From a bacterium (GTDB lineage Bacteria > JAMOTN01): a stretch of DNA of 17,148 nt. The DNA lies in assembly GCA_027062325.1 (NCBI GenBank), contig JAMOTN010000073.1, positions 1 through 17,148 of the forward strand. Direction: 5' to 3'. Made by a program: the position numbers and the translations under genes. This document shows positions 1,607 to 17,148 of the stretch, in pieces; within the stretch, counting starts at the first letter, position 1, and each line of letters begins with the position of its first letter. The notes under the pieces are model-generated. The model did not search any database and was not told where the DNA came from. It saw only the letters and a program-made list of their open reading frames with translations.

Positions 1607-2464
1607 TCACAACAAATTAAAACAGTTAAGAGCATTTTGATTAGTAAAAGCTGCAACTGTCTCTAAATCTGTTTGCTTTATTTCTGCAATTTTTTGAACT
1701 ATTAAAGGCAAGAAAAGTGGGGAATTTACATATCCTCTGTAAGGAGTTGGTGCAAGGTAGGGTGAGTCTGTCTCCAGTAAGATTCGATCTAAAGGTAAAT
1801 ACTTTACAACTTCTCTTAGTGTGGTAGCGTTTTTAAAAGTTACCACTCCCCCTATTCCAAAATAACAATCAAATTTTTCTAAAAACCTCTTAGCCATTGC
1901 AACATTCGAAGAATAACAGTGCAGTACAATTTTTTTTAAATTTGAAAAAGAGGTTAGTATTGAAAATGCATCTTCATAGGCTAACTGTTCTCTCAAGTGC
2001 AAGATTAGAGTTTTTTCGGCTTTCGTGGCTACATTTACCATTGCTTCAAAAGTTTTTTTTTGAATCTGGGGTTCGGAGAAATTGTAATAGTAGTCCAAAC
2101 CAACCTCTCCGATGGCTACACATCCTTCAGTAGATGCTGCAGATAGCAAGGTGGATAAAAGAGATGTTTTATACTCCTTTGCATCATGAGGATGTATGCC
2201 AATTGCCCAAAAAATTTCAAGTTTTGGGCTAATATTTGATGCTAGAGTTTTTATTTTTGCAATCGAACTCACTGATTGCATGTTAACAGCTGGTATTAAC
2301 ACTTTGAAATGATTTTCTTCTAGAACTGTCAACAATTTGGAAAAATCAGGATCCTCTGCAATTCTTGGATCATCTAAATGGGCATGTGTGTCAAAGTAGG
2401 GCAAACGTTGTAGGTTGACTTTATTATTCCAATACTCTAAGGATATCCTCAATCCTCCTCTCAA
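1607..2464 (-). CDS. tatD: TatD-family metal-dependent deoxyribonuclease
   Basis: A cytoplasmic TIM-barrel hydrolase; family members are Mg-dependent DNases/exonucleases that act in DNA repair or degradation. The family motifs are present: DTHAHLDD with metal ligands H27 and H29, GIHP (89-92), GEVGLDYYY with E120, H156 in LHLRE, H182 in LHCYSS, and D233 in LLETDSPYLAP. Length (285 aa) is about 20 residues over the usual 255-265, all at the N terminus. The start is not certain: the TTG at 2464 overlaps the upstream dgkA stop as TTGA and could be used by translational coupling, but a strong AGGAGG (2453-2458) lies inside this reading frame, 7 bases ahead of an ATA codon and too near any NTG. 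It is the last gene of the transferase-dgkA-tatD operon and has no obvious functional tie to the two membrane-lipid genes. Confidence 0.92.
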   Translation of the reverse strand: MRGGLRISLEYWNNKVNLQRLPYFDTHAHLDDPRIAEDPDFSKLLTVLEENHFKVLIPAVNMQSVSSIAKIKTLASNISPKLEIFWAIGIHPHDAKEYKTSLLSTLLSAASTEGCVAIGEVGLDYYYNFSEPQIQKKTFEAMVNVATKAEKTLILHLREQLAYEDAFSILTSFSNLKKIVLHCYSSNVAMAKRFLEKFDCYFGIGGVVTFKNATTLREVVKYLPLDRILLETDSPYLAPTPYRGYVNSPLFLPLIVQKIAEIKQTDLETVAAFTNQNALNCFNLL

Positions 2465-2850
2465 GCTTCATCGCTCTCCTTACCACTAAGAAAGTAGTCA
2501 ACTATGCACAAAACTAAAGATGCAACTACAACTAGTATACTAAAAAATACGGCTCCACTTGCTGTGTCCTTGGCAAATTTTGCTTTTGGATTATAAGCCG
2601 GTTCTGCTAGATCAGTTACTGCCTCTAACGAGGAGTTTATTAACTCTGTAGATAATAAGTTGGCAATCGACATGAATAATATTACTTTATAAGCGAATCT
2701 TACGTGCTTTACCAAAAGTACAAAAATCAGAGTTGGAATACTTAAAGCTAACTCTATCTGAAAAGCTCTTTCTCTTCTTGCAGCGGCAACCACCCCTTCA
2801 AAAGCCCATTGGGCATTTTTAAAAAAGTTGTAGTGTTTAGATTTAGGCAT
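2461..2850 (-). CDS. dgkA: Diacylglycerol kinase, prokaryotic DgkA type
   Basis: A small integral-membrane kinase that phosphorylates diacylglycerol with ATP to phosphatidic acid at the cytoplasmic membrane. The 129-aa product matches the family length (about 120). An amphipathic N terminus (WAFEGVVAAARRERAF, 15-30) precedes three membrane helices (about 35-50, 53-72, 98-120). The signature TELINSSLEAVTD carries the family's active-site Glu, Asn and Glu (E69, N72, E76), and AKDTASGAVF carries K94 and D95. I chose the ATG at 2850 because AAGGAG sits 7 bases upstream; a TTG at 2877 overlapping the previous gene's stop would add nine residues with no good ribosome binding site. It lies 23 bp after the LtaS/OpgB-like transferase gene, an arrangement that fits recycling of the diacylglycerol made by that enzyme. 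Confidence 0.93.
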   Translation of the reverse strand: MPKSKHYNFFKNAQWAFEGVVAAARRERAFQIELALSIPTLIFVLLVKHVRFAYKVILFMSIANLLSTELINSSLEAVTDLAEPAYNPKAKFAKDTASGAVFFSILVVVASLVLCIVDYFLSGKESDEA

Positions 2851-2873
2851 AGGCACACTCCTTCCCCACAAAC

Positions 2874-4967
2874 TCAATGAACAGTTTTGAATTTGGAAAT
2901 AAGTTTATTGCACAACTCTTTCGATACCTGATCCCACCTATCCAACTTATGTTTATACATGAAGCTAGCTGTTTGGTAAAGAGATATAGCAAGACGAGGT
3001 ATATCTGGAAGTTTTCGAGAAAAGTTCGCCGTGTCGGAAAAATTCTTCATACCCCACTCTCCAATTTTTTCGTAGTCTGATGAATATAAATCGTAACTTT
3101 TGATCTTAAAGAATTTAACAACTCTATTTGGATCTAAAATTGTTAGAACTCCCTCTTTTACAAAACCAAGGCGTTGATAAACTCCGATAAAAGCCCGTGG
3201 TTTATAATCGGTAGCAAACACACTCTGACCATAGAACTTTGATGGATATGTCCAGTTCATCAGATCAAGAAGGGTGGGTAAAATATCTATCTGAGAGCAC
3301 ATTTTATCAACTCGTGTGGGTTTTATAAGGTAAGGTGCATAAAATAGACATGGAATTCTATACCTATGAATTGGTAGCTCAAGCTTTCCTGCACTCCTCG
3401 CATTGTGGTCTGCCACAAATATGAACACAGTATTTTTAAACCATGAATGCTTCTTAGCTTCTCTGATTAAATATCCAATGGCCCAATCGGCGTATTTAAC
3501 TGAACCAAGTTTACTTGGGGATTTTATATCGATTCTTCCTTCAGGATAGGTATATGGGCGATGATTGGAAACAGTCATCACAAAGAAGAAAAAAGGTCTG
3601 TGATGAGCTGCAGTTTTATCCGCTTCTTTTATGACTCGCCTAAAAAGATCTTCATCACACACACCCCAAATTGTCTTATGGGTTATCTCACTCGTTTTGA
3701 AATCGGTCTGATCAACTATGCCGAAACCATTGTGTGAAAAAAAGTAATTCATATTGTCAAAATAACCGTGTCCAGCGTATATAAACTTGCATTCGTAACC
3801 TGCTGCTTTGAATAGTTGTCCAAAAGTGAACATATTGTGACAGTCTGGCCTTTTAACAATACTTCTCCCAGGAGTTGGAGGAACTGACATCATGACTGCT
3901 TCCATTCCACGAACTGTGCGAGTTCCTGTTGCAAACAAATGAGTAAAAGTTAATGATTCTCCACTCAGTCTGTCAAGGTTTGGGGTTAGTCCTCTATTAT
4001 CTCCTAAGAAACCGCAAAAACAAGCACTTAAAGATTCTTCCATAACCAATATTACGTTCCATTTAGAAGTTTGGTTGTCAAAAGTGGGTTTGTTAGCTTG
4101 AGTCGGTTTAACAACACGCGTTATCGGTTGGGGAAGTGAAGAACAGCGAGAGCAATCCAGTAGATAGGATGAGTTTTTGAGCTTTAAAAAATCCCTTGTA
4201 ATTTTAAAAGCTTCATCGTCCTCTATAAAAGCAAAATAGCGTTTATAGTCTATGACATTGTGTCTAAACTCAGAAAAAAGAGAATAAATTCCAGACTTTG
4301 AAAGTTCCCGTACGTATACATCATTTGAAACTGTTTCTACTAATGGGTATCCATCATGACCATAAAATGTTGCTACTGCATACAAAACTGTCAAAACAAA
4401 AATAAAGGCTTTATACTTCAAAGTAGGAACATTTTCTTCTCTTGCGAAAGCACCAATTTTTTCAAAGAACCATAAAATCAAAACTGTGATTATGAAACAG
4501 CCGGCTAAAATTTTAAAGATAGGATATGACTCCTCAATATTTCCTACAACTTCGTGGGTGTACACAAGATAATCAACAGCTATGAAATCGAATCTACGTC
4601 CATACTCTTGCCAATAAAAGTATTCTGCTATGTAGGAAAACAAAAGTAGAAATGTGTTTATTCCCCAAAATAACCAGTTCAACACTCGAATTGGCCATTT
4701 GCCATACCATTTGTTTGGGATAATGACCAACCACAACACCACGGGAACTAACCAGTAGATAACTGCCAGAGCGTCGTAAAACCAACCTACCAAGAAAATT
4801 TTTAAAAGCGATTTAAAATTGTGTTCAAACAGTTTCCAATTATTTATGAGAATGAATACCCTAAATAAAATTCCAAGCGCCATGAAGAGTAAATACCAAA
4901 CTACTACAAGCTTAAACCTGTTTTTGGGAAACAGAAAATCCCACACTTTGCGAGCAATTTTTCTCAT
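2874..4967 (-). CDS. LtaS/OpgB-like membrane transferase of the alkaline phosphatase (sulfatase-fold) superfamily
   Basis: A 697-aa protein with an N-terminal five-helix membrane domain (about 19-41, 54-83, 94-116, 149-168, 187-202) and a large extracytoplasmic sulfatase-fold domain from about 303. Metal and catalytic motifs are visible: NVILVMEES (E311), ATGTRTVRGMEA with the likely catalytic Thr at 351, VSNHRPYTYPEG (H469) and FVADHN (D520, H521). The CxPxR formylglycine motif of true sulfatases is absent, so a Thr nucleophile and a phospho-transfer reaction are expected, as in LtaS (lipoteichoic acid) and OpgB/MdoB (phosphoglycerol transfer to periplasmic glucans). The acceptor is unknown; a phosphoethanolamine transferase role is also possible. 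The ATG at 4967 has a GGAG 8-10 bases upstream. The next gene, dgkA, would consume the diacylglycerol released. Confidence 0.85.
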   Translation of the reverse strand: MRKIARKVWDFLFPKNRFKLVVVWYLLFMALGILFRVFILINNWKLFEHNFKSLLKIFLVGWFYDALAVIYWLVPVVLWLVIIPNKWYGKWPIRVLNWLFWGINTFLLLFSYIAEYFYWQEYGRRFDFIAVDYLVYTHEVVGNIEESYPIFKILAGCFIITVLILWFFEKIGAFAREENVPTLKYKAFIFVLTVLYAVATFYGHDGYPLVETVSNDVYVRELSKSGIYSLFSEFRHNVIDYKRYFAFIEDDEAFKITRDFLKLKNSSYLLDCSRCSSLPQPITRVVKPTQANKPTFDNQTSKWNVILVMEESLSACFCGFLGDNRGLTPNLDRLSGESLTFTHLFATGTRTVRGMEAVMMSVPPTPGRSIVKRPDCHNMFTFGQLFKAAGYECKFIYAGHGYFDNMNYFFSHNGFGIVDQTDFKTSEITHKTIWGVCDEDLFRRVIKEADKTAAHHRPFFFFVMTVSNHRPYTYPEGRIDIKSPSKLGSVKYADWAIGYLIREAKKHSWFKNTVFIFVADHNARSAGKLELPIHRYRIPCLFYAPYLIKPTRVDKMCSQIDILPTLLDLMNWTYPSKFYGQSVFATDYKPRAFIGVYQRLGFVKEGVLTILDPNRVVKFFKIKSYDLYSSDYEKIGEWGMKNFSDTANFSRKLPDIPRLAISLYQTASFMYKHKLDRWDQVSKELCNKLISKFKTVH

Positions 4968-6144: not shown

Positions 6145-6600
6145 CTAATCGAAAAATTTTCCTGATGAGTATTTCCATATAAGTATTGTTTCTGAAATTA
6201 GAGAAAAAGCTACTACTCCAAATATCACGGAAGTAAACTCTTTAAAGAACAAAGATAACTCCAATAAAGCACTCTGGATTAGTATGAGTATTAGGGCATA
6301 CATCGCATTGCGAAAATTATGGCGTCCACCTGTTGAAAACCAAATTATTAGTAAAAGTTGAATGGTAGTGATGGTTTTTAATACCCCAGAGTAAGTTATA
6401 ACTAATCTGTCAATATTGTCCAAATTCTCTGCTAAAAAAAGCATTAGAGATATGTGGAGTCCAATCGTTATAAATTTATTTACCTTAACCTGCCATTTAG
6501 ATAAAGAATACTTCTTTAATAAAAACAAAGTTATTTGCAGCATAACTAACTCAAGTGCTGGAATCAACCACAGACTCAGCTTCCAATCTAACCGAAGCAT
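6145..6600 (-). CDS. Integral membrane protein of 151 aa, family not recognised
   Basis: I do not recognise this family. Five hydrophobic segments can be seen (about 9-28, 42-57, 72-89, 98-118 and 123-142), separated by short loops with basic (KKYSLSKWQVKVNK) and acidic (ENLDNIDR) character, and 'STGGRHNFRN' before the fourth helix. There is no catalytic motif. I chose the ATG at 6600 because AAGGAG ends 8 bases upstream; the GTG at 6609 would lie immediately after that ribosome binding site. The gene begins 23 bp after the pseudokinase-like membrane protein and is probably co-transcribed with it and with the giant surface protein gene. A role as membrane partner of that protein is inference only. 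Confidence 0.75.
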   Translation of the reverse strand: MLRLDWKLSLWLIPALELVMLQITLFLLKKYSLSKWQVKVNKFITIGLHISLMLFLAENLDNIDRLVITYSGVLKTITTIQLLLIIWFSTGGRHNFRNAMYALILILIQSALLELSLFFKEFTSVIFGVVAFSLISETILIWKYSSGKFFD

Positions 6601-6623
6601 AAGAGGCACTCCTTAAATAATTT

Positions 6624-7601
6624 TTAGACATTCATAATAGCTTCTATCTTAAATTTTAACCAAAATCCTTTATTTGTTTGAACTAACTCAATGCCAAACA
6701 TCTCAGCAACTTTTTTTTGAAAGTCAGAAGGTACCACCCCTTCTACTTCCACTACTACAAACTTGTCGTGTTTTCTTATCTCGATTCTAGTATTGTCTGG
6801 AATTTCAAAGAACAGAAGCTCTATTATATCTTTTGAAGATACAATTTCCACGTCTTCTCCTCTCACCAAAACCTCAAGTCTCAAATCTTTAAAGAGGGAA
6901 GTTAGAGTATCTCTCAATTTTACTTTCTCAAATTTGAAAAACTGTTCAACTTTGGGCATAGCTTCCTCTATCTTTTTAACTATCTCGAGAAACTTTGATC
7001 GTTCTTCTTCAGGTATATTAGCCAAACCAATGTTCAATCTCAATACAGTCAACTTATTTCGCAGTAAATCCATTACCTTCCAATAATTCATCTCTTCAAT
7101 CAATCTAAGCTCCCGATCCTTCAACTCCTTATATCTTTTTTCCTTTTCGGTAAGTCGTACCTCTTCCCAATCAAATTCCAAGGCAATCGCAAGAGCAATC
7201 ATCCACAAAGGAAATATTTGGTCTAAAAAACTTTCAAGTTGGGTAAGATTACTACTGGATAGCTTACCTTCTCTTATAAGACTATAGGCTGTTAATAGCG
7301 TAAAAAGTGAAGTCCCAAGAAACATCTGCTTAGGGTTATCTAAAATTATAGGCATGAGAAAGATCAACCAAGATTTATAAGTTGATAAGTATATGAAGGA
7401 GAAAACTATTGTTAGAGCAGCCAAGTTGTAGATCAAATCTGATCTTGCTTTCCACATAACGTACTTGCAGACAACTATTAAAGCCACCACAAACCAGAAC
7501 AACAGATCAAGATCATGAGTGTAAAACATCCAAAAGGCAACTATTATCGCCAAGTACCAAACTTTTTTTAAGCTAGCTTTTCCTAACATTTTCCAATTCA
7601 T
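6624..7601 (-). CDS. Membrane protein with degenerate histidine-kinase-like cytoplasmic region
   Basis: Six membrane segments (about 13-25, 32-48, 56-72, 77-88, 93-108, 126-143) are followed by a charged coiled-coil helix (144-175), which leads into 'YWKVMDLLRNKLTVLRLNI' (173-191). This resembles the HisKA pattern HELRTPLT with Asp178 in place of the His. A second helix (198-222) and a beta/alpha region (228-325) resemble the HATPase_c fold order: 'LRLEVLVRGEDVEIVSS', 'IELLFFEI', 'TRIEIRKHDKFVVVEVEG', and the ending 'IELVQTNKGFWLKFKI'. The N-box Asn, the DxGxG box and the GLG lid are missing, so ATP binding and phospho-transfer are unlikely; a sensory or scaffold pseudokinase is my reading. 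The ATG at 7601 overlaps the previous stop as ATGA and has GGGAGG 4 bases upstream. No response regulator lies nearby. Family assignment is by eye and needs a profile search. Confidence 0.65.
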   Translation of the reverse strand: MNWKMLGKASLKKVWYLAIIVAFWMFYTHDLDLLFWFVVALIVVCKYVMWKARSDLIYNLAALTIVFSFIYLSTYKSWLIFLMPIILDNPKQMFLGTSLFTLLTAYSLIREGKLSSSNLTQLESFLDQIFPLWMIALAIALEFDWEEVRLTEKEKRYKELKDRELRLIEEMNYWKVMDLLRNKLTVLRLNIGLANIPEEERSKFLEIVKKIEEAMPKVEQFFKFEKVKLRDTLTSLFKDLRLEVLVRGEDVEIVSSKDIIELLFFEIPDNTRIEIRKHDKFVVVEVEGVVPSDFQKKVAEMFGIELVQTNKGFWLKFKIEAIMNV

Positions 7602-7945
7602 TTTGCCTCCCAATACCAAACTACTCCCCAACTTATAATTGCACAAACAGCTGATATTAAAAGGACTTCAGGGAAATGTTGAAAAAATTCTGACGAGAGT
7701 AAACCCAAAGCTGTTCCTGCAGTCATAGCAGACATTAAGGCAACTCTTTTCAAATTCGGTTTTCCCCAACAGTAGGCTATCCAAGCAGTAATGAGAGAAA
7801 ATGCAAATGAGAGAAATTGTAGAGGTGCGGGATAAATTTTAAAAAATAGGAACAGAGCCAGCAAAATCAGCCCAACGGTAAATACGGATGCCCACGCTGC
7901 AACCAACAATGCCTTAGCGGTAAATTTTCTAAGATGAAAAGCCAT
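7598..7945 (-). CDS. Small four-helix membrane protein, family not recognised
   Basis: A 115-aa hydrophobic protein with four predicted membrane helices (about 13-36, 41-60, 67-84, 92-111), a basic N terminus (FHLRKFTAK) and a basic loop (GKPNLKR) between helices 2 and 3, which suggests both lie in the cytoplasm. I see no family motif. The start is fixed at or after the ATG at 7945, because an in-frame TAG lies two codons upstream. The ribosome binding site is poor: the nearest purine run, GAGG, is about 16 bases away, so translation may depend on coupling with the giant gene, whose stop is 27 bp upstream. Its own stop overlaps the pseudokinase-like gene by four bases, which argues that the two proteins are made together and may act together. 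Confidence 0.7.
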   Translation of the reverse strand: MAFHLRKFTAKALLVAAWASVFTVGLILLALFLFFKIYPAPLQFLSFAFSLITAWIAYCWGKPNLKRVALMSAMTAGTALGLLSSEFFQHFPEVLLISAVCAIISWGVVWYWEAK

Positions 7946-7972: not shown

Positions 7973-10900
7973 TTAACGTGCTACAAATAACTTTCCAAAT
8001 CGTTTGTAGCTGTTTCCATCTGCAAATTCAATTTTTATCTTGAATAGGTACACTCCACGTTTTGCATCTTTAAAATCATCTGTGGTTAAATCCCATTCAA
8101 TCGTGAAAACTCTGTCTGCCGGAGTTTCGACAATTCTCTTTACTACCTCACCAGCAGAATCATAGATGGTCAGATAAACTTTGGTAGGAGTTTGATCTGC
8201 TGTGACAAATACTCTGAATGGAGGGGTCGATACCGGAACAGGACCCCATTTTACAGAATTTACAACACTCCTTCCTAAACTATAAAAGTTTCTTGTCAAC
8301 TCCGTAACATTACCAGCTCTATCAAATGCTCGGAGGGTTAATCTCCATTCGCCTTCAGGTAGATCAAGATCCTCTAACCTTCGTAAATAATAGTCGGATG
8401 CTTTGATAACACGAGTTGTAGGTTCCTCAAGACCAGATTTATCAGTTAAAGTATACTCAATTGTTGCCAGACCACTTCCCAAATCAATTCCAGCAATTAC
8501 AAGCTGAGGAGGTGAAGAGGATGAGCTTCTTGTTTGATTATCGCTGTTTCCAATATCTCTAACATTCAATAAAGTAATCTCAACTTTGGGTTTTTCCAAG
8601 TCTTCAATTGCCAAGAAAGAAACACCGGATGGTATGTAGTCTTTTATCCAACGACCATCTGAGGTTTTAATTCCAGTATAAGGAGGAAGTTTGGCACTAA
8701 CTGTAGCATTTTCGTATTCGATTACGTATTTAGCAGTAAGAGGACGGATGCCTGCTGCGTAAAGTGAAGTGGTAGGTGGAAGTGGAGTTGATTGTTCGCC
8801 ATCCTTTCCTGAATTGTCTTGGTTAACATCACCAGTTAAAGGAGCTACTGTTCTGATTAAGCTCCTTGAATTTTTTATAGTCTTGATTACAGCCTCAGCG
8901 TAAGAACGAGTTGCAACTTTAGAAAGAGCAGCTTCAAAGTCATCTGGTAAAGTATCTGAGACCATGTACATCTTAAAACGAGCATAGTCACTCTTGGCGG
9001 ATACTTTAAGTTCAAGCGAAGAAGCAAGTGAGATGGTTCTCGTTTGGGATGACTGTATGCTAAAGTCAAATATGGGTCGTTCACTTTCTCCAACTTTAAC
9101 CCATACATTTGCTGCTTCTGCCTCTGTTCTTACAGATGTTGTAGCAAATACTAGATCTGATTCATTGAGTTCAAAGTCGCTTATATAATAATTCAATGTT
9201 CCTTGAAGATGATCCACTTTTAATTCTTTCCAGCTGTGTAATGAGGGTAGCCAAACCTTGACTTCTGGAGTTCCATAGTTGTTTTCATCTTTTATTAGAA
9301 TAAACCATCGCTGTGTTCCAGGGGCTGAAAAATGCTCTGGGGCAGGAAATGCATTCCAAACATAGCGCTGCCATTGATATATCTCAAATGTCGGAGTTTT
9401 TACCTCAGAGGCAACTCCTGAATAAAGCACCGGAACATTTTGGAAGAGCAAGTGATAATCTACAGTAGATGACCAATAGTCAGGATCATTTGTCCATATA
9501 TAAGTTATACCTGTAAATACCCCTTTGTTGTTAAGATTCTCCCATTTAACAGTTGAGAACGAAAGAGGCGGTTTATCAGTAGAAGGAATGAGAAATGCTT
9601 TGACTTGCACCGCTGCTTCGGTAGTGGTAACAGGATAATTAAACTTAGCTACAGCCATTATACGTGCTAAATCTCCTATAACCTGCACATCAACTGAGTA
9701 ATCTTCACACTTAAAGTTTATAAAGTTTATGTTGAGTTTATTTCCGTTATAAGAATTACCATCCACATCTCCTGCAGGTATTTTCACTATACGTCCTGCA
9801 GTATCTTCAACATAAAGTGAAACTTTTACTTCACCGGTAACAGTATTGTCAGAATTGAATGGTATAAAGATTGAAATATTTTCGGGCTTTACAGATCCAA
9901 GATTCGTTACTTCCAAAGTTGTAACTTGAAGCAAACTCGCAGTCGGTACTGGAGTAAATGGTATTTCAGATCCATCCGCAATAATTTTAGTTATAGCATT
10001 TGCAGGGTAATCTGTAAATTGAGTAACATTGCGATAATCCAGTACTACTCTTATTCTATTTATTCCAGTGGATTGAGAGTCATAAAAAGCTTTTATTTTT
10101 ATTTCAACCGTTGTAACTCCAGAATTTGTAACCACAATTGAAGGTATACTCTCTGCAGTAGCTTTGTAAACGGGAGCAATAACTCTGAATTTTACAGGAA
10201 TTGTGGCAGAACAATTACCTGCTAAATCACAAGCGGAAATATAAACAGTTTGTTCTCCCAACTTATCACGTAACTGTGCTGCTGAAAAATTGACAGACCA
10301 ACCAACTTTGTAAGGACTCGTACTTCTCAAGAAAGAAGCTTCTTTAACAGGATCAGCTGGATCTAGCACATCGCACCTCAAGTAAGATTGAGAAGTAACA
10401 ACAGGTTCTGAAACTGCGGCTTCCACGGTTGCTTGTCCAAGAAGAGGATCAACATATCCTGGAAGAGTCTCTACACTGTAAACAGTAGCATTTGACAAAG
10501 ATGGAACAGTTGAGTCATCTATGGTTAAATCCGCATTTCCAACAGCCTCAACACTTGCAGCGCTCACAAAATAAGGGAATGAAGCAAGGGAAATATAGGT
10601 TGCGTCTGTAACTGCTGGATAAACCCCAGCAATTTTCAAATTTATTCCATTTCCTCCTATTCTGATTATTACTTCTCTTGTACTGCGACGACTTGTAACG
10701 TTTAGAAGGGTTGCTGCATCTCCAGGACTTGCTCCAGCAGGTTGAAACATCTGGGCTATCAACGCTGGAGTCACAGTAGTTATGTCTCTGTTTAGAAACA
10801 CAGCACGTGAAAAACGGAGTACTACATAATCACCTTCATCTACAACAGCATTGTGATTGTTGTCAATGAATTCTGCCTTTTCTAAAGCAGGAGCCGTTGT

Positions 10901-13900
10901 ATCCAGACATTTGATATCAATTCCAACTGCGTTAGTAGCCATTTTAGCTGCTGATCCATTAGTTCCAATAATGTTGGAAGAGTACCTTCCCTTATCATAG
11001 GTTGTTAGAAAAGTGTTGACATTCAAAGCTGCTCCTGTGATAGAAGTATATGCATCATCCCATATATTCAATTCTGGATTGTCTCCAAGTGTTATAACAA
11101 CAGAATTTACATTGTACTTAGTAATAGTAGCCCCTGCTCCAAAACTACCCGTGTCGTGAGATATTGACAGATAAGTAAGTGGATTGTTCCCAGATTCCAG
11201 TTCTTGAATAGACTTTGAGAACGTAACAACTATCCTGTCTCCCTTATCCAAACCGTTGTTGTCATCATCGTAGTAAATAGCTTTCACAGGATAAGGAGCA
11301 GACGCATCCTCAATTCTTAATGAGTAATCCAACAGATCCGGTAAATTACCGCTAGTGTCTTGGAAGGTAGCAGTTGTTCTTACATGTAATTGATCCCCCT
11401 CTGCCCAACCTGATACTCCATTACCATTGAAAACAATGGCAAGCTTGTTATCATTACCAGAATCCATCGTATTAAAGGTAGGATTATCACCAAAATTTAT
11501 TACTCCAACAGTTTCAAAACTGTTCAATATTTCGCCCGCTTCATCGATAGTGGTATCGTTTATAGGTCTATCAAATATCAATATCAAAACATCATCACTG
11601 TTATCATTTGGAGTTGCTCTCTGAGAAAAGCCATCTGATCTGTAAAGCACCTTTATCAAAGCAGGTCCACCAGGGACTTGGATGTTATGCCACTCATAGG
11701 ACGAAGGTACGCCTCCCCAGATAGACTTTATCTTTCCTGGAACGCAAGATATTTGAGTTTGATCATGAATTGGCAGCTGAGCAGAAGGAGCTACGTTTAT
11801 CTCTATTACGGAGTCATTGGGCGTGGCACCAGTTTCAATAACACTGCCAACTCCAAAACTACCTACTTCTCCTGAAACTTCAAAAATATAAGTAGCATCT
11901 TGACCTACACATGAAGAATCATCAATCGGTTTATCAAAAACTATTACTATTCTGTCATCCGAGACGTCGTAAGTTCCATTTCGGTTCCAAGTTATAGAAA
12001 CAATATGAGGGGCACTTAAATCTGGTAAAATTCCCAAAGTAACCTGTTGAGCAGCCAATGGATTTCCTCCTTGATCTCTAGCAGAGTCCGCCGCAAAATC
12101 TAGCTCAAGAGTTTGAGATAAGTTTTGTTCAATTTGATTAACTTGATCAGCTGTTAAATCTAACGTAACTGTTTTGTTATCACCACTCCACGTTGGAACT
12201 GCTCCATTTAAGTTCCCAAGAATTTCTGTTCCATCGGATTGACGCACTACTCTTATAAGGTTCAAGTTGAAAGTGGTTGGAGAAATGGGTTCTGAGAAGT
12301 GTATTACTATTCTGTTATTTGCTACTTCATAGGTTGCTCCTTCAACAGTAGGAGGTATGTTATCAGAAACGTTTACCATACCTGTATCATATACAGTTGT
12401 TCCTTGAGAGAGGACAACCTGTATATTTTGAGGCAGAAAACCTGTAGCTGGTGGAGTTATCCTAATTTCGCAAGTATCGTAACCACCAGCAGCAATATTG
12501 GCTGTAGTGTAAGAGGTATTCCAAACACCATTTTTCCCAAATTCAACAGTCCAACCTGCTAATCCCGGTGAAGATAACAGGTAAGAAAGCGCTGCATTAC
12601 CGGTATTTATAACCTTTATTTCAAGAGTTCCGGATTGTCCCGGATTTAAATTCAATATTCCAGAAGCCCCGCCACCCCCAACGGGATCTTTAATACCTTC
12701 ACCATTTCCAGATATAACCAAATCTGCCCCTGCAGTCAATCCCACATTCACAGTAATAGTAACAGAATCTGTGGTCGTAGCTAAACCAGTATTTGTAGAA
12801 GTTCCGGCCACGATTATATTGTAGGACCCTTGAGGGGTTGCATCCGGAACATGAACTTGAACAGTATTTGTCAATCTACTTGCTGCCAAAGAGCATATAC
12901 CGCTCCAAGAAGTAGCTCCACCAAATGTCACCGACCACCCAGCTGGGGCATTTACCGTGTTAACTGCAAAGTTTAAATCAACATTCCCAGCATTTATAAC
13001 CACTATATCAGTTGCCACTGTTTCACCAGCTGAAGCTGATAGTGTCACAGAACCACCTGCTCCTGTAAGACCAGAAGCACTAGTATCAATAACACCTTCA
13101 CCACTTGCTGAATTACTAACATCTCCAACAGCTAAGTCAACTTTAGCTTCAGGATGCCAATTTACAATCAGTGCTACAGACTCAGTAGAACCATCTGGTA
13201 AAGTGACTTTGAAATATATGTAGTAAACAGTATATGGAGTAGCTGCTGGAGTCTCTGGATCCGGAATAACTTCTAAAGTTATATCCTGTTTATTAGTTGG
13301 AGGCGTTCTGGTTAAAACAGAAGTTATGAAACTCGTAGCCTCAACACCGTTAAATCTGACACGCCATCCAACTGGAACATCATAGGCTCTTATTGTAAAT
13401 GAGGTATCGTAGTTACTCTCGTTTTCAACAGTCAAAGTTTGAATAATCGTTCCAGAAGATGGTGATGCATCAACAGTTACTTGACCTCCAGAAGTGCCAT
13501 CACCGTATTGGCCATCTCCATTTCCAGCAATTATCAAATCGCACGTTGCTTTTGCATTAACAGTGTAAGTTATTCTAACTGAGTCCACTCCTGTAGAAGT
13601 ATCCCCTTCTCTTGAAGCATTTACATATAGGGTTAAAGAATCTCCGGCTACAGCATCTGAAGGTGGGGTGATATCTACTCTGTAAATTGCCTCTCCTGTA
13701 AAGGCAGCCAAATCTGGCGAGTCTTTTGTTGGTCCTATAGCAAGACCTGTCCAGTTTTCATACACTCCAACATTCCATGTGGAGGGAGTTATTGTACCTG
13801 CAGGTGCACTACTTCCCCATGAAACTTCAAAACTTGTAGTCACATTTGACTCATTTTGAAGCTTAACATAAACACTCTTAGTTTGACCCGGATCTACACT

Positions 13901-16900
13901 CAAATTTATCGCTCCGCCACCACCGGAGAAGAGATTTGAGTCGTAAACATTATCTCCAATAGTAGTATCACCTGGTGATTCACCCAGCAAAAGATCCGCT
14001 TTTAAGCTTTCTCCAATGTAAATTCTCAAGACAACTTCTTGAGTTGAACCAAGGTTATTAGCACTATCTGGACCAATTACTATTTTGAATTCATATATAC
14101 CACTTGCTGGCAAAGGATTGGGAATCTTTACGTGCAAAGTGGCGTATTCCTCCTCATTAAAGATCTCCCATCTTCTTACTTCAGCTCCAGAGTAAGCAGT
14201 ACCGCTACCTGTTAAAACACTACCATCAGAACACTCCAAGGAAGCAGTCAAACCTGCTGCCGCAGTGTATTCAAATTTAAATCTGTCATTAGCATTCCCC
14301 CTGTTGCGTACCTTAATTCCAAAATTGTATATTGTACCTGCAGAAGGAGAATCAAGAGCAAACACTTTGTAATCTGGATCGTTATCTGTAACTCCCGCAT
14401 CAAGAGAATATATCTCTGCCGAAGTTTTACCAACGTATAATACCTCAATGGTGATACCAACACCATCGGTTGCATTAGCAAAATTTCCAGCTCCGTCTTG
14501 AAAATATGTATTAGCATTGTAAGCATGTTCAGAGGAGGCAAACACAACATAACTGTAAACTCCAGCAGTAGCAGCAGGAGAATTTGGTACCGTCACATTT
14601 ACCGAAAAACTGAATGGTGCAGACGTATAGGGACTCTGTTGATAAAATTGAGTTCCCGTCTCACCAATAACCCTTGGATCTGTAGATCCAGAAGCAGCAA
14701 GTCCTGAAGCACTCACAGCTCCGCTCCAGTCAGACAGTATATTTTCTCCAGAAACCACTCCAATATAATAGTTTTCTATTGTATTAGCTAAATTGTAGAG
14801 CCTGATATTGAATACAGCTGTATCTCCTGGCTTAACGGAAATTGTACTCCCTGCACCTGCAGTATCATAAGCAGGAGTTCCAATGGGATCAATCAAATAC
14901 ATATTGCGTGCCCTCTCTACGCCATCATCTCCAGTTACACTCAAATCTACTCCTGAATAAGGAGCAACCGTTAATTCTATTCGTCCTGCGTCTCTTATAC
15001 GATTTGGTATTGAAGCTTCAAAAGGTACGGAGTAATGCAACGCTTCAGTATGGTTTAATATATTTACTGTCAAATCTGTAGAAACTGTAGAGAAAGCTGC
15101 AGCAGCTGGATTAGGAGTTGCCGGTATAACTTCAACTGAAGGGTTTGGCACTGAAAATGGTGCAAATGTTATGGTGAGATCTGAGTTAGATCTGTTTTCA
15201 GCCGTAGCGTAAATTGTAGCATTACTTCCAGGCAATATTGCGTTTGGAATAGTAAACACTGCACCATTGTGAGGAGGAGTCACATCTGTATCAAAATTTC
15301 CGTAACCATTGCTATTAGTACCATCTCCTAAAACCAAATCAACGTCAAACACTGAACCTATTGTAACGTGCATGGTGGCATAATCCTCACCTGTAATAGT
15401 ATTATCACTGGCAGCTCTTGAAATAACATGAATAATAACTTCGTACAAAGTTCCGGCCACTATCTGATTATCCGCCGCATTAGGAATTGAAAAGTTAAAC
15501 TGTAGAAGTGCGCTCTTCAGCTTCCCAACACCATTGTAAGGAGGATAACTCAAATTCGCACTACTAGAAGTCCCCGGACCTGCTGACCACTCAGCTGTCC
15601 AGTTATTGCCATCTCCATCAAACACTAAGACCGATTCTATCTCTACAGATAAATCATCGTTAACGTCAGCTGTAACTTCCGCCGAAACCGTGCGTGTATA
15701 AGTTATGGAAGCAGCAGCTCCTGTGGCAGGTAGTAAGGTTTCAGTAGTTTCATTAAAAGGAGGGGTAGAAACATTCGGGAATTTGAGATTTATAGGAACC
15801 GTGGCAACTACTGGAACAGTGAAGTTCATCAAAGCCGTAACTCCAGCAGCGGTAATAGAACTACATTGAACAGTTATTTGGTAATCCCCAGCTTTCGGAG
15901 GATAATCTCCCACTCCACCTACGGCGGGAGTGCGGGGAATATCTATATTAAGAGCAACTTCTTCAGTTGCTTGGGGAGCTATATCAGATAAAGTTGTAGT
16001 AGAAGAGGGTTGAGTAATGGTTACTGTCCAACCAGAAGGGTAATTTGTTATGCTTAGATTAACACTTTGAGTTGCATTTGAAAGATCTCCATTCAATACT
16101 TCAAAGGTTGCACTCATGGGATAAGTCCCATCATACTCGACATCACTTTTACTAATTTGAGCACCATTTATGGATTGTAAGATCTTGCTTCCCGGATCCG
16201 CACTATCTCCTTCATGATTAACTCCGTCTATAACTATGTCTACATCATAAGTAGCTGGCACTATTACAGTAAATTTAATACTGTCTGTTCCATAATATTC
16301 AACATCACTGTTATAAGGATTGTTGTATCGTGTCCTAACATAAAAAGTATATGTACCTGCAGTAGCATAAGCTGGCACTGTAACTTCAATAGTGACCAAG
16401 CGCTGAGCTTCTCCATCTACTGTAACAGTTGTACTATTATTAGTACTCCCATCCCATAGGTCTGTGATTGTTCCGGTATCTAATGTTATTCTCCACCCAG
16501 CAAAAGCCTGTGCTGCATTTCCAAGTGTAGAACAAGCCATTTTTACAAGATCAAATCTTATATCTTGGGAAATAGACAATTCATTCTCAATAGTGGATAC
16601 AACTTGAAATACCGTATTATTTGCCACTTCAGATTGAGTCAATGTCTTTGAGACAGAGGATGCATTGCCTGCAACACTTAAGTCGTACTTGTTATCTCCA
16701 TAATCCACCACCGAACAATTATCCACAGTGTATATCACTAAGTCAGTTTGCCATTTTCTAACTTTGACTTTAAACCATGCTTTATCACTTATTCCAGGCT
16801 GTTTGGAATCCGCCCAAAATGGCACTACATAATCTCCGGGTGATAGCAATGATGGGTCAGCTGGTGTAGTCATTGTAAGATCAACTTCAATAGAAGTATC

Positions 16901-17148
16901 AGGGCCAGCACCAATAGTTACGGTATCTCCAGAAACAAGAGGACTCCCTGCATCGGATGGAGAAGTTTTATAAACTGCGCTAAATCCCCAACTTGAAAGT
17001 GTAGTCCAGTTTATTTTCACACTATCTGTGCTGGGAATTTCATTCTCAACAAAAAACACAGTATCTGTCGATAAAGGCAGGGAAGTTAAACTGTAATCAA
17101 CATATATCGTTTCCGTTCCATCATTGTAAACATCTTGTCCCTCAACAC
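7973..17148 (-). CDS. Giant multi-domain surface or secreted protein, N terminus outside the window
   Basis: The frame is open from the window edge (first full codon at 17146) to TAA at 7973, at least 3057 residues; the N terminus and presumed signal peptide are not in view. In order there are about ten beta-sandwich units resembling NEW3/CARDB-type modules (roughly residues 130-1585), about six Big_5-like Ig units (1590-2300), a region of about 650 residues with no family I recognise that includes 'DLAGN' and two Asp/Asn-rich loops like calcium-binding loops, and a C-terminal FlgD-Ig-like domain (about 2960-3057) ending 'KRFGKLFVAR'. Composition is Thr/Ser/Asn/Gly rich with very few Cys, typical of exported adhesive or surface-layer proteins. 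There are no transmembrane helix, LPxTG motif or catalytic residues that I can see. Three membrane-protein genes follow closely in the same direction. Likely roles are cell-surface structure, adhesion or matrix; this is inference. Confidence 0.88.
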   Translation of the reverse strand, partial: VEGQDVYNDGTETIYVDYSLTSLPLSTDTVFFVENEIPSTDSVKINWTTLSSWGFSAVYKTSPSDAGSPLVSGDTVTIGAGPDTSIEVDLTMTTPADPSLLSPGDYVVPFWADSKQPGISDKAWFKVKVRKWQTDLVIYTVDNCSVVDYGDNKYDLSVAGNASSVSKTLTQSEVANNTVFQVVSTIENELSISQDIRFDLVKMACSTLGNAAQAFAGWRITLDTGTITDLWDGSTNNSTTVTVDGEAQRLVTIEVTVPAYATAGTYTFYVRTRYNNPYNSDVEYYGTDSIKFTVIVPATYDVDIVIDGVNHEGDSADPGSKILQSINGAQISKSDVEYDGTYPMSATFEVLNGDLSNATQSVNLSITNYPSGWTVTITQPSSTTTLSDIAPQATEEVALNIDIPRTPAVGGVGDYPPKAGDYQITVQCSSITAAGVTALMNFTVPVVATVPINLKFPNVSTPPFNETTETLLPATGAAASITYTRTVSAEVTADVNDDLSVEIESVLVFDGDGNNWTAEWSAGPGTSSSANLSYPPYNGVGKLKSALLQFNFSIPNAADNQIVAGTLYEVIIHVISRAASDNTITGEDYATMHVTIGSVFDVDLVLGDGTNSNGYGNFDTDVTPPHNGAVFTIPNAILPGSNATIYATAENRSNSDLTITFAPFSVPNPSVEVIPATPNPAAAAFSTVSTDLTVNILNHTEALHYSVPFEASIPNRIRDAGRIELTVAPYSGVDLSVTGDDGVERARNMYLIDPIGTPAYDTAGAGSTISVKPGDTAVFNIRLYNLANTIENYYIGVVSGENILSDWSGAVSASGLAASGSTDPRVIGETGTQFYQQSPYTSAPFSFSVNVTVPNSPAATAGVYSYVVFASSEHAYNANTYFQDGAGNFANATDGVGITIEVLYVGKTSAEIYSLDAGVTDNDPDYKVFALDSPSAGTIYNFGIKVRNRGNANDRFKFEYTAAAGLTASLECSDGSVLTGSGTAYSGAEVRRWEIFNEEEYATLHVKIPNPLPASGIYEFKIVIGPDSANNLGSTQEVVLRIYIGESLKADLLLGESPGDTTIGDNVYDSNLFSGGGGAINLSVDPGQTKSVYVKLQNESNVTTSFEVSWGSSAPAGTITPSTWNVGVYENWTGLAIGPTKDSPDLAAFTGEAIYRVDITPPSDAVAGDSLTLYVNASREGDTSTGVDSVRITYTVNAKATCDLIIAGNGDGQYGDGTSGGQVTVDASPSSGTIIQTLTVENESNYDTSFTIRAYDVPVGWRVRFNGVEATSFITSVLTRTPPTNKQDITLEVIPDPETPAATPYTVYYIYFKVTLPDGSTESVALIVNWHPEAKVDLAVGDVSNSASGEGVIDTSASGLTGAGGSVTLSASAGETVATDIVVINAGNVDLNFAVNTVNAPAGWSVTFGGATSWSGICSLAASRLTNTVQVHVPDATPQGSYNIIVAGTSTNTGLATTTDSVTITVNVGLTAGADLVISGNGEGIKDPVGGGGASGILNLNPGQSGTLEIKVINTGNAALSYLLSSPGLAGWTVEFGKNGVWNTSYTTANIAAGGYDTCEIRITPPATGFLPQNIQVVLSQGTTVYDTGMVNVSDNIPPTVEGATYEVANNRIVIHFSEPISPTTFNLNLIRVVRQSDGTEILGNLNGAVPTWSGDNKTVTLDLTADQVNQIEQNLSQTLELDFAADSARDQGGNPLAAQQVTLGILPDLSAPHIVSITWNRNGTYDVSDDRIVIVFDKPIDDSSCVGQDATYIFEVSGEVGSFGVGSVIETGATPNDSVIEINVAPSAQLPIHDQTQISCVPGKIKSIWGGVPSSYEWHNIQVPGGPALIKVLYRSDGFSQRATPNDNSDDVLILIFDRPINDTTIDEAGEILNSFETVGVINFGDNPTFNTMDSGNDNKLAIVFNGNGVSGWAEGDQLHVRTTATFQDTSGNLPDLLDYSLRIEDASAPYPVKAIYYDDDNNGLDKGDRIVVTFSKSIQELESGNNPLTYLSISHDTGSFGAGATITKYNVNSVVITLGDNPELNIWDDAYTSITGAALNVNTFLTTYDKGRYSSNIIGTNGSAAKMATNAVGIDIKCLDTTAPALEKAEFIDNNHNAVVDEGDYVVLRFSRAVFLNRDITTVTPALIAQMFQPAGASPGDAATLLNVTSRRSTREVIIRIGGNGINLKIAGVYPAVTDATYISLASFPYFVSAASVEAVGNADLTIDDSTVPSLSNATVYSVETLPGYVDPLLGQATVEAAVSEPVVTSQSYLRCDVLDPADPVKEASFLRSTSPYKVGWSVNFSAAQLRDKLGEQTVYISACDLAGNCSATIPVKFRVIAPVYKATAESIPSIVVTNSGVTTVEIKIKAFYDSQSTGINRIRVVLDYRNVTQFTDYPANAITKIIADGSEIPFTPVPTASLLQVTTLEVTNLGSVKPENISIFIPFNSDNTVTGEVKVSLYVEDTAGRIVKIPAGDVDGNSYNGNKLNINFINFKCEDYSVDVQVIGDLARIMAVAKFNYPVTTTEAAVQVKAFLIPSTDKPPLSFSTVKWENLNNKGVFTGITYIWTNDPDYWSSTVDYHLLFQNVPVLYSGVASEVKTPTFEIYQWQRYVWNAFPAPEHFSAPGTQRWFILIKDENNYGTPEVKVWLPSLHSWKELKVDHLQGTLNYYISDFELNESDLVFATTSVRTEAEAANVWVKVGESERPIFDFSIQSSQTRTISLASSLELKVSAKSDYARFKMYMVSDTLPDDFEAALSKVATRSYAEAVIKTIKNSRSLIRTVAPLTGDVNQDNSGKDGEQSTPLPPTTSLYAAGIRPLTAKYVIEYENATVSAKLPPYTGIKTSDGRWIKDYIPSGVSFLAIEDLEKPKVEITLLNVRDIGNSDNQTRSSSSSPPQLVIAGIDLGSGLATIEYTLTDKSGLEEPTTRVIKASDYYLRRLEDLDLPEGEWRLTLRAFDRAGNVTELTRNFYSLGRSVVNSVKWGPVPVSTPPFRVFVTADQTPTKVYLTIYDSAGEVVKRIVETPADRVFTIEWDLTTDDFKDAKRGVYLFKIKIEFADGNSYKRFGKLFVAR
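7976..8272 (-). other. FlgD-Ig-like C-terminal domain of the giant protein
   Basis: The last 99 residues carry the pattern 'VYLTIYDSAGEVVKRI', 'IEWDLTTDDFKDAKRGVYL', 'FKIKIEFADG' and 'FGKLFVAR'. This matches FlgD-type Ig and related C-terminal domains that end many large secreted proteins, some of which serve as secretion or attachment signals. Whether it is a sorting signal here is not shown by the sequence. Confidence 0.65.
10200..12372 (-). repeat. About six Big_5-like Ig modules in the giant protein
   Basis: Units open near nt 12372, 12024, 11670, 11310, 10905 and 10525 with a D-x-x-x-P motif (DNIPPTV, DLSAPHI, DASAPYP, DTTAPAL, DDSTVPS; the third unit has GGPALI). They continue with an acidic loop and then 'RIVIHFSEPI', 'RIVIVFDKPI', 'VLILIFDRPI', 'RIVVTFSKSI' or 'YVVLRFSRAV'. 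This is the signature of the bacterial Ig-like Big_5 group found in surface proteins. Spacing is 350-405 bp. Confidence 0.65.
12400..16760 (-). repeat. About ten NEW3/CARDB-like modules in the giant protein
   Basis: Units open with a hydrophobic-Asp motif such as VDIVIDG, VDLVLGDG, VDLSVTGDDG, ADLLLGE, CDLIIAGNGDG, VDLAVGD or ADLVISGNG, at about nt 16745, 16243, 15790 (divergent), 15342, 14946, 14415 (divergent), 13993, 13538, 13138 and 12722. A Gly/Asp-rich loop follows, then a strand pair with the pattern 'VDPGQT', then an Asn-containing strand (ENESN, NRGNAN, NAGN, NTGN) and usually 'GWTVxF'. Spacing is 390-530 bp. Units are divergent at DNA level, so the array is old. Confidence 0.6.

Follow-up and report, generated by a model that had tools for sequence, protein, structure and literature searches.

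A predicted six-helix membrane protein, probably of histidine kinase ancestry, that lacks the phospho-acceptor histidine and the nucleotide-binding motifs

A 325-aa protein encoded in the window (the whole stretch of DNA analysed here, 17,148 nucleotides) is best explained as a degenerate, dead histidine kinase, because predicted secondary structure, Foldseek and VIA favour kinases and the catalytic residues are missing. Kinase ancestry is likely, not proven. That the protein is a catalytically dead six-helix histidine kinase derivative, which would act non-enzymatically like RocA, we hold to be slightly more probable than its opposite. The main evolutionary rival is unrelated ancestry and the main functional rival is a role in a structural complex.

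The 325-aa open reading frame is a real gene. It starts in an ATGA overlap (7598-7601) with the preceding 115-aa membrane gene and has a ribosome binding site, GGGAGG at 7606-7611, four bases 5′ of its ATG; this fits the translational coupling to a small membrane protein that the initial annotation describes. The gene and the parts of its product are as follows.

Positions 6624..7601, minus strand: pseudo-histidine-kinase-like gene, stop included, an intact 325-codon frame
Positions 7173..7601, minus strand: membrane domain of about six helices, residues 1-143, from the AlphaFold2 model and hydropathy
Positions 7086..7172, minus strand: charged coiled-coil linker, residues 144-172, which in the core model runs on into the first helix of the hairpin
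Positions 6930..7085, minus strand: DHp-like helical hairpin, residues 173-224, without His, in which LLRNKLTVL resembles an H-box
Positions 7083-7085, minus strand: codon of Tyr173, the alternative His position in MAFFT and one threading run
Positions 7068..7070, minus strand: codon GAT of Asp178, at the His position in the ungapped H-box register
Positions 6627..6929, minus strand: HATPase_c-like alpha/beta domain, residues 225-325, without the N-box Asn pair, D-box, G-boxes or lid

The membrane part agrees with the earlier proposal of six helices. The AlphaFold2 model places them at residues 11-27, 31-52, 56-72, 78-86, 90-110 and 116-142, and by hydropathy four of the hydrophobic segments are clear and two are weaker. 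The initial annotation had also seen the order of membrane domain, coiled coil, HisKA-like helices and HATPase-like region as retained; the membrane part and the order are indeed predicted, but the identity of the cytoplasmic fold, which we assign moderately to a DHp plus CA module, is less secure.

Loss of the N-box, DxGxG and lid motifs is evident from the translation: residues 225-325 contain no DxGxG, GxGxG, GxG, canonical N-box or lid, and neither do the other frames of the gene, so that an assembly frameshift hiding the motifs was rejected. Threading aligns the N-box stretch FFNLLSNA with FFEIPDNT, where the first Asn is lost and the second happens to be Asn. Residues 144-278 contain no His at all, which holds under any alignment. 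Judged from these residues, catalysis or phosphotransfer through a histidine by the 325-aa protein is very unlikely, and phosphotransfer of the ChpT or Spo0B kind was rejected because the protein has no His. The claim that Asp178 replaces the phospho-acceptor His stands only in part. Residue 178 is Asp, and ungapped extension of the match between LLRNKL and HELRTPL (DLLRNKL) sets it on the His, but the register is not secure. MAFFT at three settings opened a gap and put Tyr173 in the His column, and of two threading runs the core-model run gave Tyr173 with a gap while the full-model run gave a gapped stretch. Since free alignments place Tyr173 or a gap there, the exchange of His for Asp is only one of two possible registers.

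Loss of every catalytic motif, in a single-copy orphan, could also mean that this is a decaying kinase gene without function. However, the frame is intact across 325 codons, the coupling and ribosome binding site are clean, and the hydrophobic and amphipathic patterns are retained, so decay is very improbable.

From sequence alone, kinase ancestry has no support. A Pfam scan of the protein at E up to 5 matched neither HisKA/DHp nor HATPase_c models, and a search of its own genome with PF00512 (E up to 10) did not recover it. Nothing credible was found in NCBIfam, PHROGs or, by phmmer, PDB sequences, where matches to carrier proteins (E 0.15) were judged to be chance. Using hhalign against 28 real kinase cores gave a score of 5.1, under that of the best shuffles (10.7), and Smith-Waterman comparison with kinases gave Z from -0.9 to 3.1, nearly all below 3. 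Position 178 does not stand out in the H-box profile, as a fraction of 0.41-0.999 of shuffled sequences reach its score.

The argument for kinase ancestry comes from predicted structure. We used two single-sequence AlphaFold2 models, one full-length and one of the core, both of low pLDDT (43 and 47). They predict a membrane part of several helices, a coiled coil leading into a helix hairpin, and then an alpha/beta domain. With the core model, Foldseek ranks 1-7 and 9 are chains of the kinase DesK, ranks 1-7 covering 173-232 columns at E 1.7e-3 to 3.9e-3 and prob 0.66-0.93; with the full-length model, chains of DesK, EnvZ, QseC and CpxA are among weak matches. All of the first six VIA matches are histidine kinases (HprS, YycG, DesK, CpxA), three of them spanning both domains, at Z 5.3-5.7, although a Z below 8 also occurs between unrelated folds and may mean only a common arrangement. 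FtsK and arginine kinase score about as well as the kinase matches to the CA domain only (Z 4.2-4.4), and designed proteins come near. The kinase core expected by the initial annotation thus heads both lists, but at pLDDT 43-47 and Z below 8.

Threading was based on a kinase profile plus secondary structure, that of the kinases being hand-assigned from known topology. Using secondary structure from the full model, the score was 86.9 compared with 63.5 +/- 7.6 for block-shuffled sequences and 56.1 +/- 7.6 for residue-shuffled ones; 1/400 of the former and 0/400 of the latter attain it. Using that of the core model, the score of 69.7 was not above block shuffles, being reached by 141/400 of these and by 18/400 residue shuffles.

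An origin outside the kinases would make the cytoplasmic part a coiled coil, a hairpin and a small alpha/beta domain that resemble a kinase only through a common order of secondary structure. This would fit the failure of every sequence method to detect kinases, the low confidence of the models, the failed core-model threading and the nearness of FtsK, arginine kinase and designed proteins to the CA-only matches. It has to contend with the kinases that top the Foldseek lists of two models and the VIA list over both domains, and with a full-model threading score that outdoes nearly all shuffles. Taking both sides together, the structural evidence favours kinase ancestry to a moderate degree, by odds of roughly two to one, and we consider a non-kinase origin a serious but less probable reading.

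Searches for relatives covered about 465 distinct genomes, in sets of 98 and then 386 taken domain-wide and 82 from the phylum to which the closest GyrB belongs, and no homologue of the 325-aa protein was found among them. Viral contigs, phages and plasmids likewise gave no homologue, nor did a short-pattern scan of genome contigs, which sees only close relatives. No paralogue was found in its own genome, making the gene a single-copy orphan. A lone weak match (E 0.009), to a 462-aa frame in genome G018, was set aside as it looks like a membrane-fusion protein of the HlyD type aligned over the coiled coil. The best GyrB matches are 58-61% identical, with no near kin, and the neighbouring Mrp protein, used as a query on genome contigs, found only distant Deltaproteobacteria and one spirochaete.

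The 325-aa gene lies in a tandem row of giant gene, 115-aa gene, 325-aa gene and 151-aa gene, with gaps of 27, -4 and 23 bases, and a gene for an Mrp/NUBPL-type ATPase comes after the 151-aa gene. That two more membrane proteins are encoded in tandem with it also speaks for the dead-kinase reading.

Positions 7973-17059, minus strand: giant open reading frame, at least 3028 codons long, which carries NEW3 and Ig-like domains and ends in a FlgD_ig-like part
Positions 7598..7945, minus strand: 115-aa membrane protein of three to four helices, overlapping the 325-aa gene by ATGA, with no family match
Positions 6145..6600, minus strand: 151-aa five-helix membrane protein, with no family match

The giant frame, possibly longer because it is close to the contig edge, likely encodes a surface protein. 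For the 151-aa gene the ORF list gives GTG 6609, and ATG 6600 is the better start, with AAGGAG at 6609-6614. Elsewhere in the window (2461-4967, minus strand) the gene for a membrane protein of the sulfatase family, LtaS/phosphoglycerol-transferase-like, comes immediately before those for a prokaryotic diacylglycerol kinase and TatD.

No response regulator gene is encoded in the window, in agreement with the initial annotation. This fits, as does the tandem arrangement, a protein whose main role would be to hold together a membrane complex with the 115-aa and 151-aa proteins as a structural scaffold, perhaps one for exporting or anchoring the giant surface protein, with no part in signalling. 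However, conservation of the cluster could not be shown, and it is spacing only that suggests an operon including the giant gene. We would put the chance of such a role at about one in four in plain terms, somewhat below that of a non-kinase origin. Less probable again, and frankly speculative, is the reading in which a kinase fold that has lost its acceptor and nucleotide site is now a permanent component of a membrane complex of the 115-, 325- and 151-aa proteins serving the giant surface protein, in a bacterial lineage with no close relatives among the genomes searched; such a use we have not found described.

The genome, which is 84% complete, has one HisKA kinase (on contig C5, apparently soluble), together with a GAF-HATPase protein, CheA and a degenerate kinase on contig C34. 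No canonical membrane-spanning kinase that could be a partner in the RocA style was recognised in it, which counts against the dead-kinase reading. About eight genes contain receivers, against few recognisable histidine kinases. On C34 (L063:3462-5229; G000:C34) a HAMP protein of 215 aa has a helix hairpin but lacks a catalytic domain, and the next gene encodes 360 aa with a shortened DHp region and a weak HATPase_c domain (27 bits). After these come a gene resembling nucleoside transporters and one for an NtrC-like regulator, truncated where the contig ends; together this is perhaps a split or degenerate two-component system.

The initial annotation called degenerate kinases of this sort rarely described, which is only partly right as RocA, DivL and ChpT are known repurposed kinase folds. 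In group A Streptococcus, RocA combines six transmembrane helices with a DHp and a degenerate CA domain, and is an experimentally supported pseudokinase whose activity is unaffected by a His-to-Ala exchange and which co-immunoprecipitates with CovS (PMC7028121, PMC6193603). On its predicted structure, the 325-aa protein would have in common with the Streptococcus pyogenes protein the six membrane helices, a DHp or DHp-like part, a CA domain without kinase residues and the lack of a response regulator of their own. They differ in that RocA retains His246, although it can do without it, and can be recognised as a relative of sensor kinases (PMC7028121, PMC6193603), whereas the 325-aa protein, with no His in 144-278, is far more degenerate and has no detectable sequence kinship with kinases, and no partner kinase was recognised for it. 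In DivL of Caulobacter the phospho-acceptor His is replaced, as it may be here, and the protein works without kinase activity, but it has PAS domains and a nucleotide-binding catalytic domain and is a clear kinase homologue (PMC4211667). Proteins of the ChpT/Spo0B type have the DHp hairpin and reduced Bergerat-like domain that are predicted here, ChpT being without a normal ATP lid, but they keep the phosphate-carrying His and have no membrane domain (PMC3433190). DesK, the best Foldseek match, has the order of multi-helix membrane domain, coiled coil, DHp and CA that is predicted here, but its ATP site is complete, it has His188 and it is active as a kinase.

If the protein is a dead kinase derivative, then, as its catalytic residues are all lost, its signalling would depend on binding or on a change of shape. 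From the membrane helices the coiled coil would lead into a dimerising DHp hairpin and a shrunken HATPase-like domain unable to bind ATP in the normal manner. A signal arising in or at the membrane, which the co-translated 115-aa and 151-aa proteins perhaps relay, would shift the helix bundle, and this change would alter the binding of a partner without phosphotransfer, as is thought for RocA with CovS. We infer the dimerisation, the switching and the partner; conformational coupling with binding would be the most economical function for a protein made of a membrane domain, coiled coil and DHp-like part. Should this be right, dead sensor kinases, described in Streptococcus and Alphaproteobacteria, would reach a distant bacterial lineage, and a kinase scaffold could erode this far while its layout persists. 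Such proteins would then escape profile annotation and so may be undercounted.
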